A stretch of 64,000 nt of DNA from Halosegnis marinus (GTDB lineage: Archaea; Halobacteriota; Halobacteria; Halobacteriales; Haloarculaceae), in the NCBI RefSeq assembly GCF_029338355.1, contig NZ_CP119802.1, positions 186,001 through 250,000 on the forward strand, given 5' to 3'. Both the position numbers and the translations under genes were made by a program. Positions 35,907-39,304 of this stretch are shown in pieces. Each line of letters opens with the position of its first letter. Within the stretch, counting starts at the first letter, position 1. The notes beneath the pieces were generated by a model, which ran no database searches, had not been told where the DNA came from, and saw only the letters and a program-made list of their open reading frames with translations.

Positions 35907-36095
35907 TTACGCGGCGGGGGCGCGCTGCTTGCGGGTGATGTACCCCGCGATGCGGTTGCGGACGCCCTTCGACTCGACGTTCGTGAGCTCGGCGACGACC
36001 TCCTTGTTGTGCTCGAAGTCGGTGCTGAACGCCTCCTCGTAGCGCTCCAGCAGCGCCGTGGCGAGCTTCTTGATGTAGGCCGGTTTGATAGCCAT
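35907..36095 (-). CDS. rps17e: 30S ribosomal protein S17e
   Basis: A 62-residue archaeal ribosomal protein: [34 protein letters not shown], then [18 protein letters not shown]. The KxYIKKxA start and the [10 protein letters not shown] end are diagnostic. The length is normal for the archaeal form, which lacks the eukaryotic extension. It is located just after the DUF447 gene (44-nt gap) on the same strand and could be the last gene of the cofD-containing run. Confidence 0.95.
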
Positions 36096-36139: not shown

Positions 36140-36751
36140 TCACCCGTCGCGACGCCACGAGACGAGCGCCTCGAACCGCTCGAACGCGGCCCGCTCGCGT
36201 GCGCCCCCGGCCGATTCGACCACCGACGCGAAGAAGCGGATGCGCTCGCGCAGGGCCCCGTCGTCGTACCCCGGCACGCCGAGTCGCGAGGCCGCGACGG
36301 TCGCCTCCACGACGGCCGCGTGTCCCCGCGAGACGACGGGGACGGACTCTGAGACCACGGCCGACTCGAGGGGCTGAAGCGTCCAGTCCGTCCACTCGGT
36401 GTCGCCCTCGGTTCCCGACGCGCGCTCGGTCGCCTCGACCTCGGCCCACGCCGCCGCCGAGTCGAGCACCGGGTCTGCCTCCTCCCGCGTCGAACACGCC
36501 GCCTCGACGAAGTCCACGGGGTCGCGCGTGAACTGCACGTACCCGCCGCCCCGTTCGGCGAAGTTGCGCCACGTCCGGGTCCGCCCCCACGTCCGGGCCG
36601 TCACCGGGTCGTCGGGGGCGCCATCGACCGAAACGCCGCCCTCGGGGGCGTGGAGGCCGAGCGCCGCGACGTTCCACCGCTCGTTCGGGCCGAGCGTCGT
36701 CACCACCGACTCCGCGACCCCGTCCCACGCGGCGGGCCACTCCCCGGTCAC
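36140..36751 (-). CDS. DUF447 domain-containing protein
   Basis: A 203-residue archaeal protein starting at [37 protein letters not shown]. The block [36 protein letters not shown] (about 50-85) is the strongest match to DUF447. The rest is helical ([23 protein letters not shown]). GTGA at the start overlaps the stop of the CitG-like gene, so the two are translationally coupled. The family is associated with archaeal cofactor metabolism by context, but its activity is unknown to me. Confidence 0.82.
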
Positions 36752-37578
36752 ACCGCCAACCCCCGTTCGAGCGCGACGTACAGCGCCGCGCAGGTGATGT
36801 CCGCCGTCGTCCCCGGATTGATACCCCGCTCGACGAACTCCCCCGCGAGCGTCTCGGGGTCCTCCTCGCCGTCGAGACAGGCCCGTGCCCGCTCGCGAGC
36901 CTCGCGGGCGGCCTCGGGACCCGACGTGGTCCGGACGAAGCCGTCCTCGCGCTCCGCGAGCAGGCGGAGAAAGGCCCGGGCCCCGCGGTCGGGCGCGGGG
37001 CCGTCGTCGTCGAGGATCCGCTCCGCCTCGCGGAACGTCCGCGGGAACCCCTCGCGCCACTCGCGGGCGTTGCCGTCGCCCTCGGAGCGGGCCATGACAT
37101 CGGCGAGGGTCAGCCCCCGCGCCTCCAGTTCGGGGACGGCGTCGGCGCCCCGGCGCACGTCGAGCGCGTTCGTTCCTTCGGGAGGGTCGGCGACGGCCAC
37201 GTCCACGTGCTCGAACGCGCGGTAGAAGCCCGCGGCGTCGGCCGTCGTCGTGGCGTCGCAGACCGCACGGACGCCCTCCTCCGAGAGGTCGCCCGCGGCC
37301 GCCGCGCGCACGAGCGGCACGAGCAGGAGCAGACAGCCGAACTGCGTGTTGCCGCCCCGCTGGTCGCTCATTCCGGCGACGGCCGCCTCGAACGCCTCGC
37401 CGACCGGCGCGCCCGATTCCGCGGCGCGAAGCCCCGCGGCCGACCCGACCGCGCCCGCGAGGAAGTGTTCGAACCTGAGGTCCTCGTGGTCGCGCGCGCG
37501 GTCCACGTTGCCCGGCTTGGGCGTGCCCGCGACTTCGAGCAGGAGCGCGAGTTCCGCGTTCTCCGCGTGGGTCCTCAC
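36748..37578 (-). CDS. Triphosphoribosyl-dephospho-CoA synthase-like (CitG/MdcB family) protein
   Basis: A 276-residue protein of the CitG family. Signatures are [36 protein letters not shown] (about 12-47), [24 protein letters not shown] (about 70-93) and [22 protein letters not shown] near the C-terminus. Bacterial CitG makes the citrate-lyase prosthetic group precursor from dephospho-CoA and ATP. Haloarchaea are not expected to use that lyase here, so the real reaction may differ. It starts at GTG 37578, overlapping the Dus-like gene by 4 nt, and ends inside the DUF447 start. The tight coupling with cofD suggests a cofactor pathway. Confidence 0.82.
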
Positions 37579-38315
37579 GCCTCGACACCCCCCTCCGCGC
37601 GCAGCGCCGCGGCTACCCGCGCTAGGACGCGGAGGTCGTCGGAGGGGCGGCCGACGCTCACCGCGTCCGCGCCGTAGTCGAGGTACTCGCTCACGGAGGC
37701 GCGGTCCCGGACGCCGTTGTTGGCGACGAGGAAGAGGTCGCAGGCGTCGCGCACGTCGGCGACGACGGCCTCCGAGTCCATCGCGTCGAGGTGGAGACAG
37801 TCCGCGCCCGCGTCCTCCAGTCGGCCGGCGAGCGCCGGGAGGTCCACGCCGGTGACCTCGGCGCGCACCTTCACACTCACGTCGGCGTGGTCGCTCGCCG
37901 CGCGGACGTACTCGCACAGGCGGTCGCCGTCGCGCAGGAGGGTCTCGCCCGCGCCGGCGTCGCACATCTCCGCTTGTCGGCAGTGGGCGTTCACCTCCAG
38001 TATCGCGCCGCGCTCGCTGGCGACGCGGGCGGCCCGGGCCAGGGGTTCGACGGCCGTCGTCCGGACGTTGACGCCCGCCCGGAGGTCGGCGTCGGCGAGC
38101 GCGTCGAGCTGGGCCGCGACGAACGCGACCGGGTCGTCGGGGAGGAACTCGGTGCGGTCGCGGGCGACGAGCGCGCGGGCCGCCTCGCGCGTCGGGCCGT
38201 CGAGCGAGACGCCGCCGAGGACGGCACAGCCCGCGTACTCGCTCCCGGCGCGTGCCCACGCCGCGTCGGCCTCGCCCGACAGCGACGCGAGCGCGAGGCG
38301 GGGCGCGAACATCAC
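37575..38315 (-). CDS. tRNA-dihydrouridine-synthase-like TIM-barrel protein
   Basis: A 246-residue protein. It opens [21 protein letters not shown] and has the barrel strands [25 protein letters not shown] (about 104-128), [34 protein letters not shown] (about 145-178) and [29 protein letters not shown] near the end. This is Dus/FMN-binding architecture, shorter than bacterial Dus. The cysteine in VNAHCRQ sits where Dus enzymes have their catalytic Cys region. Whether it modifies tRNA or acts in the neighbouring cofactor pathway is open. It overlaps cofD and the CitG-like gene by 4 nt each. Confidence 0.78.
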
Positions 38316-39304
38316 GCCACCTCCCCGAGCGCGCGCTCGACGGCGCGGGCGACCCGGGCGCTGTCCTCGGGCGTGTCGAGCGTCGTGTCCGTGCGCACGA
38401 CCGGCCGGTGGAGGTCCGTGGGGTCCTCGTCGTCCAGCACGAACGCGTCCGCGAAGCCGTAGGCGTCGGCGACCCCCCGAGTGGAGGGGTCGCGACCCGT
38501 CGCGGCCATCAGTTTTCCGGCCGGACCGGAGAACACCTCGTCCCCGACGAACGGGGAGACGGCGACGACGGGCGTGTCATCGAGCGCCCCCCGAAAGGCG
38601 TCCATCGCGAGCATCGGGCCGAGCGAGGTGACCGGGTTCGAGGGGCCGACGACCACCGGGTCCGCGAGCGCGTCGAGCACCTCGGGGGTGGGGTCGGCCG
38701 TATCCGCGCCGCGGAACTCCACGCGCTCGACCGCCGGCTCGCCGCCGTGTGCGACCCACCACGCCTGGAAGTGCTGGGGGCCGTCGGGCGTGTGGACGAT
38801 GGTGGCGACGGGGTCGTCGCTCATCGGGAGGACCGGGCGCTCGACGCCGAGCGCCTCGCGGAGGGTGACGGTCGCCTCCGTAAGGGTGTGCCCCTCGTCG
38901 ATGAGGCCCGTGCGCGTGAGGTGGACCGCGCGGTCGCGGTCCCCGATGAGCATGAACTCCGCAACGCCGGAGAAGCGCCGCCAGCGCGCGATATCGCGGC
39001 CCGCCGTCTGGGCGTCGTCGGGGAGGTACCGGGGGCCGTCGGCGAGCCCGGCACGCTCCGCGAACTCCCCGAGCGCGCCGTGGGTCGCCGTCGAGTCGTC
39101 GGCGATGCCCCACCACGTCCCGGTGTCGAGTTCGCCCGCGTCGGCGAACAGCTGGGTGTCGAGGTCCGGGCAGACGAGGTGGCCCGCTATCTCGACGTCG
39201 TCGCCCGTGTTCGCCACGACGGGCGTCTCGGCGGGCGGGAACGTCTCCGCGGCCCCGTGGAGGAGCTTCGGCGTCCCCGTTCCGCCCGCGAGGAAGGTGA
39301 CCAT
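38312..39304 (-). CDS. cofD: 2-phospho-L-lactate transferase
   Basis: A 330-residue enzyme that transfers the phospholactyl (or related) group to Fo, forming F420-0, the redox cofactor used by many haloarchaeal flavin-type enzymes. The start [17 protein letters not shown] is diagnostic. [25 protein letters not shown] (about 29-53), [14 protein letters not shown] and [16 protein letters not shown] (about 222-237) are also CofD blocks. It is the first gene of a four-gene overlapping run (cofD, Dus-like, CitG-like, DUF447), so all four are probably expressed together. Confidence 0.95.

Follow-up and report, generated by a model that had tools for sequence, protein, structure and literature searches.

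A CitG-like and DUF447 gene pair beside cofD in haloarchaea and its probable role in a methanopterin-type one-carbon carrier

On the stretch of the Halosegnis marinus genome (class Halobacteria; G000) analysed here, 64,000 nucleotides referred to as the window (C1:186001-250000), the F420 gene cofD is closely followed by genes for a Dus-like TIM-barrel protein, a CitG-like protein and a DUF447 protein. This arrangement raises the question of which of these genes form a functional unit and which cofactor that unit serves. An earlier note on this DNA had proposed that the products of the latter three genes act together in a coenzyme pathway, perhaps leading to a modified F420.

Gene order around cofD in haloarchaea and other archaea

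The genes were found head to tail on the minus strand in the order cofD (38312-39304), Dus-like gene (37575-38315), CitG-like gene (36748-37578), DUF447 gene (36140-36751) and rps17e (35907-36095). The first, encoding the 2-phospho-L-lactate transferase of F420 synthesis, was matched by TIGR01819 (351 bits, cut-off 257), the CitG-like gene by PF01874 (205 bits), the DUF447 gene by PF04289 (84 bits) and PF20766 (47 bits), and the gene for ribosomal protein S17e by NF002242 (96 bits). The TIM-barrel gene, which is of the MJ0144 type, was matched by PF01207 (35 bits) and by TIGR00736 at 111 bits, the cut-off of the latter being 218.7. These family matches, together with the recurrence of the genes in other genomes, confirm that the first four are real minus-strand genes, as the earlier note had read them. 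The 4-nucleotide overlap that it described at every junction holds for the Dus-like/CitG and CitG/DUF447 junctions (GTGA, read from the sequence), and holds for the cofD/Dus-like junction only with a GTG start at 38315, the overlap being 1 nucleotide with the ATG at 38312.

Comparison of 20 haloarchaeal loci, 17 bearing DUF447 and three from genomes without it, showed the cofD-Dus-CitG-DUF447 string to be recurrent, and this order is therefore not due to chance. CitG adjoins DUF447 in all 17 of the DUF447-bearing loci, with cofD beside the pair in 16. One locus (L015) was identified to have Dus-CitG-DUF447 with no cofD nearby, and two (L012, L018) keep the pair with the Dus-like gene absent from the cluster. 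The gene rps17e is the syntenic 3' neighbour in most haloarchaeal loci, including those of genomes without CitG-DUF447, and is thought to be functionally unrelated to the other four genes.

Outside the haloarchaea, CitG was directly followed by DUF447 in 13 of 13 sampled loci, each from another archaeal family of the same phylum, and these 13 loci gave no match to S17e. Only two of the 13 families had cofD near the pair. CitG and DUF447 can therefore be regarded as the old unit, and cofD is, as judged from gene order, a mostly haloarchaeal neighbour of this unit and not a member of its pathway. A location of the CitG-like and DUF447 genes mostly away from cofD, which the earlier note had regarded as evidence against its own proposal, is thus seen in the other archaeal families, but not inside the haloarchaea. 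In the control genomes of M. jannaschii, H. volcanii, S. acidocaldarius and M. acetivorans, CitG, DUF447 and beta-RFAP synthase were all matched; no match to CofD was obtained in S. acidocaldarius.

Natural losses and bacterial one-carbon clusters

DUF447 was identified in 142 of 145 Halobacteria genomes, the exceptions being G001, G007 and G018. As the first two belong to one genus and the third to a second genus whose other members retain DUF447, at least two independent losses have occurred. Among 108 Halobacteriota, the only genomes without CitG are these three. Beta-RFAP synthase was found in 141 of the 145 Halobacteria, being absent from the same three and from G121, the only one of the 145 with DUF447 but without a match to RFAP synthase; this last absence is possibly an assembly gap (the assembly consists of 70 contigs). 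The joint absence of DUF447 and RFAP synthase (three of three losses of the former within four absences of the latter, n=145) gave a P of ~8e-6 with Fisher's test, a value that treats genomes as independent, the real unit being two loss events.

CofD was retained in all 12 genomes tested, including the three without DUF447. In these three, the Dus-like gene is retained as well and the order cofD-Dus-rps17e is intact, with CitG-DUF447 cleanly gone from the gap. The genomes concerned are small (2.1-2.4 Mb). One of them, G007, a complete single contig of 2,085,946 bases, was rechecked with tblastn and profile searches. With the queries used, tblastn revealed no CitG, DUF447, RFAP synthase, Mer or MetE N-terminal half on the contig, and the profile searches revealed no CitG and no DUF447; cofD and the Dus-like gene are present on it. 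The Dus-like protein was ruled out as a member of the pair, since its gene remains beside cofD in genomes without the pair and is missing from the two clusters (L012, L018) that retain the pair, and the joint action of the TIM-barrel protein with the other two that the earlier note had envisaged was not borne out.

Enzymes of one-carbon metabolism were found to differ in whether they follow these losses. An orthologue of Mer, the F420-type methylene reductase (276-324 bits), is present in nine of nine positive genomes and absent from G001, G007 and G018, the last of which has merely a 133-bit paralogue. In the positive genomes examined in detail, MetE is split into adjacent N-terminal and catalytic halves, with a 4-nucleotide overlap in H. 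marinus. Its pterin-binding N-terminal half is absent from all three of the genomes without the pair; in G001 and G007 only the catalytic half is left, in diverged form (48-49% identity, compared with 75-80% among the orthologues compared), and no Meth_synt_2 gene was found in G018, from which MetE is thus missing entirely. Mch was kept in all 12 genomes tested, these three included. Haloarchaeal Mch is therefore independent of the CitG-DUF447 product, and its candidacy as a user of the cofactor is unsupported. A full-length bacterial-type MetE of 766 amino acids was observed in one genome besides the split MetE (G014, L058:1483-3783).

In bacteria, CitG and DUF447 were found on megaplasmids of Azoarcus, Phyllobacterium, Aquabacterium and Azospirillum, inside an H4MPT/methylofuran cluster with RFAP synthase, mtdB, mch, fae, a flavoprotein gene, DUF6513 and mfnB; the cluster of methylotrophic Pseudomonadota combines all of these with myfB/Orf5. 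The haloarchaeal unit resembles this cluster in having the same CitG and DUF447 families, a CitG of the same clade and RFAP synthase as a partner. It differs in that the CitG-DUF447 pair is apart from RFAP synthase and joined to cofD, and in that haloarchaea have no over-cut-off match to TIGR00284 and an Mch independent of the unit. These megaplasmid clusters, along with a Burkholderiaceae C1 region for which DUF447 is listed (PMC9088363), confirm the earlier note's remark that proteins of both kinds are encoded among C1-cofactor genes. A CitG-family gene was also located in further bacterial H4MPT clusters. Orf5 of Methylobacterium was ruled out as a CitG homologue, being the glutamate ligase MyfB (PMC8141765). 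A single-protein scan gave two proteins, of which the one from Rhodopirellula is a true relative and the other (L029) a plain flavin reductase. In Rhodopirellula europaea (L028:9267-11544), DUF447 lies between genes for a PabA/TrpG-type amidotransferase (GATase) and an RFAP-synthase-family protein, with 4-nucleotide overlaps at both junctions, the single CitG being located elsewhere in the genome.

A candidate methyl carrier and its alternatives

Beta-RFAP synthase catalyses the first committed step in the synthesis of methanopterin, the side chain of which is built by RFAP formation, reductive opening of the ribose to give ribitol, and addition of an alpha-linked second ribose. We know of no enzymes assigned to the middle steps of this side-chain synthesis, and the CitG-like and DUF447 proteins are therefore named candidates for them in methanogens and methylotrophs. 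That the two proteins belong to RFAP-dependent cofactor synthesis is very likely. It is also probable, with somewhat less confidence, that their two genes form a unit for the synthesis of a methanopterin-type carrier that serves methionine synthesis through Mer and split MetE. The coenzyme pathway suggested by the earlier note for these two proteins is thus upheld, as one of methanopterin type rather than of F420.

From gene order, family membership, co-occurrence and co-loss, which were directly observed, we infer the product of the pathway, the order of its steps and the compound on which Mer and MetE act. Beta-RFAP, the start of the aromatic side chain, would be made from p-aminobenzoate and PRPP by RFAP synthase, whose gene lies in another part of the genome. 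The haloarchaeal carrier would be converted from its methylene to its methyl form by Mer with F420 and would then pass its methyl group to split MetE, giving methionine, with tetrahydrofolate keeping other C1 tasks such as that of Mch. The location of cofD upstream of CitG-DUF447 could then be due to F420 being the partner reductant of Mer. The wider proposal, of an RFAP-derived methyl carrier hitherto unrecognised alongside tetrahydrofolate and reserved for methionine synthesis by F420-dependent Mer and split MetE, with the CitG-like and DUF447 proteins as the alpha-ribosyl transferase and the ring-opening reductase long missing from methanopterin-type synthesis in archaea and bacteria, is put forward tentatively.

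A number of observations count against such a carrier. TIGR00284, the methanogen enzyme joining pterin to RFAP, had no match over its cut-off in any of the 12 haloarchaeal genomes (sub-threshold scores of ~20 bits), and was ruled out as the pterin-coupling enzyme of the haloarchaea tested. The haloarchaeal RFAP synthase homologue passed the subfamily cut-off (139.9 compared with 113.5) but failed the NF040726 equivalog cut-off (160 compared with 328). The retention of Mch means that at least one C1 enzyme needs no such carrier, and the co-loss rests on only two independent losses, in small genomes. No additional pathway gene was found among the neighbours of the haloarchaeal RFAP synthase and Mer genes.

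The published view is that haloarchaea use tetrahydrofolate only and that methanopterin-specific enzymes are absent, with the role of mer and mch stated as unclear (PMC8305020, PMC7599335). Folate has been assigned to haloarchaea, and it has been doubted that HVO_2628 makes RFAP (PMC8305020); the RFAP synthase match described here is equated with HVO_2628 solely through the H. volcanii control. Split MetE has been described as the usual sole methionine synthase of haloarchaea, a methyl pterin as its donor being unproven (PMC7857596). An RFAP-derived haloarchaeal carrier would conflict with the tetrahydrofolate-only view. Furthermore, the co-loss joins RFAP synthase, the CitG-like protein, DUF447, Mer and split MetE in a single module that can be tested in a group amenable to genetics, and bears on the openly stated puzzle of mer in haloarchaea (PMC7599335). 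The bacterial and methanogen context of the CitG and DUF447 families is already partly known. A literature search for DUF447 or CitG with methanopterin yielded no paper assigning a function, and as far as the literature searched shows, a haloarchaeal module of these five components separate from folate has not been described.

An alternative is that the product of the RFAP-synthase-like, CitG-like and DUF447 proteins is a different aromatic riboside, with the shared loss of Mer and split MetE resulting from parallel genome reduction, for instance in lineages that became dependent on methionine or took methyl groups from corrinoid systems. The lack of TIGR00284 and the small size of the genomes with losses would suit this, as would a corrinoid methyl-transfer locus of G007 (L174:1091-15135, equal to G007:C1:1721091-1735135). 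This locus comprises a RACo activator, three URO-D-type methyltransferases, corrinoid proteins and a pterin-binding methyltransferase, and could be an alternative source of methyl groups. However, two lineages have lost the identical set and retained cofD, Dus and Mch; RFAP synthase, CitG and DUF447 cluster together in H4MPT-using bacteria; and Mer and the pterin half of MetE are the enzymes that would be expected to use a methyl pterin. Another aromatic riboside is accordingly considered unlikely. A further corrinoid protein gene was seen in G007 beside a BCCT transporter (L177:7149-9650).

The modification or tailoring of F420, or of an F420-like nucleotide cofactor, by all four proteins is suggested by the overlapping frames of cofD immediately upstream in the window and by its location beside the pair at nearly every DUF447-bearing haloarchaeal locus sampled. 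The modified F420 of the earlier note is nevertheless very improbable, as cofD is kept in three genomes that have lost CitG and DUF447, S. acidocaldarius has the pair and RFAP synthase with no CofD match, and cofD is seldom near the pair in other archaeal families. In addition, the bacterial clusters with CitG and DUF447 are H4MPT clusters, and no annotated F420 gene was present in the sequenced stretches examined around them. A methanopterin-type carrier is thus the preferred product of the pair.

Predicted roles of the Dus-like, CitG-like and DUF447 proteins

The Dus-like protein was found to be an N-terminal homologue of the methanogen protein "methanogenesis marker 9", which combines TIGR00736 with a C-terminal TIGR03277 domain that the haloarchaeal protein does not have. 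In methanogens, the marker 9 gene lies directly upstream of CitG-DUF447 (L030, L037), and marker 9 may therefore share the pathway of the pair there. This string on the methanogen/Archaeoglobus side has the same Dus-like, CitG, DUF447 order as the haloarchaeal one, from which it differs in that the haloarchaeal Dus-like gene is without TIGR03277 and beside cofD, in organisms without methanogenesis. The Dus-type fold and the downstream rps17e could instead indicate a translation or tRNA-modification neighbourhood, with the Dus-like protein making dihydrouridine and the other genes as incidental passengers. Such a reading has very little to recommend it, given the CitG-DUF447 adjacency in 13 archaeal families without an S17e match, the score of the Dus-like protein below the TIGR00736 cut-off, and methanogen homologues that are marker 9 and not bacterial Dus.

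True CitG uses ATP to form an alpha-ribosyl bond. To place the window protein, a tree of 43 CitG-family proteins was used, the reference enzymes being E. coli CitG, a Lactobacillaceae CitG and three MdcB. The CitG proteins of archaea and of bacterial C1 clusters (C1-type) were split from these five with support of 100/100, on a long branch outside the CitG/MdcB group; as the tree was midpoint-rooted, the C1-type group is one side of a branch. The residues K21, G23, V25, N77, G81, D212, P255/G256 and A259/D260 are largely common to both groups, whereas the H-x-D-M motif of true CitG/MdcB (H31/M34 columns) is not conserved in the C1-type set, in which N24 and N254 replace L and S. An AlphaFold2 model of the CitG-like protein (pLDDT 92.7) matched only 3h9p, a CitG-like protein of Archaeoglobus. 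That the protein is a true triphosphoribosyl-dephospho-CoA synthase for a lyase or decarboxylase prosthetic group, despite the Pfam match and shared motif residues, can be dismissed as barely credible, given its separate clade, its altered motif, its scores of 22-29 bits with the CitG/MdcB equivalog models (cut-offs 272-282), and the lack of a citX/mdcG partner in the C1-type loci examined. Lyase or decarboxylase genes (citDEFX, mdc) were likewise not seen in the loci examined. The window protein probably has the fold and type of chemistry of true CitG/MdcB with a different acceptor. On the basis of its clade and its co-loss with RFAP synthase, the gene (36748-37578, minus strand) is annotated as encoding a candidate alpha-(phospho)ribosyl transferase of an RFAP-derived C1 carrier.

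The AlphaFold2 model of the DUF447 protein (pLDDT 92.5) has a flavin-reductase-like FMN-binding split-barrel fold. Its best PDB matches, 2ptf, 2iml and 2nr4, are DUF447 structures titled as having FMN (riboflavin 5'-phosphate) bound, and are followed by flavin reductases; with 3b5m, these DUF447 structures form the top fold matches, at 24-26% identity. DUF447 is accordingly a predicted FMN protein and a candidate reductase of the pathway of the CitG-like protein. In the methanopterin-type pathway, DUF447 with FMN would carry out the reductive opening of the ribofuranosyl ring that yields the ribitol chain, a step that it fits because of its FMN fold and its translational coupling to RFAP synthase in Rhodopirellula. 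The CitG-like protein would add the second ribose in alpha configuration, a bond of the type that true CitG forms on dephospho-CoA with ATP as donor. This allocation of the exact steps, ring-opening reduction to DUF447 and alpha-ribosylation to the CitG-like protein, is plausible but doubtful in its detail. DUF447 proteins have also been linked to cannulae formation in Pyrodictiaceae in a 2026 paper (PMC13140500), a role that looks unlikely because of the FMN fold and the C1-cofactor context.

In a divergent haloarchaeon with a genome of 1.9 Mb (G021), the RFAP synthase gene was observed to follow glmM, a Nop5-domain gene and the fibrillarin gene (L078:4422-8183). These genes are head to tail with overlaps of 1-4 nucleotides, and CitG and DUF447 are located ~25 kb away on the same contig.
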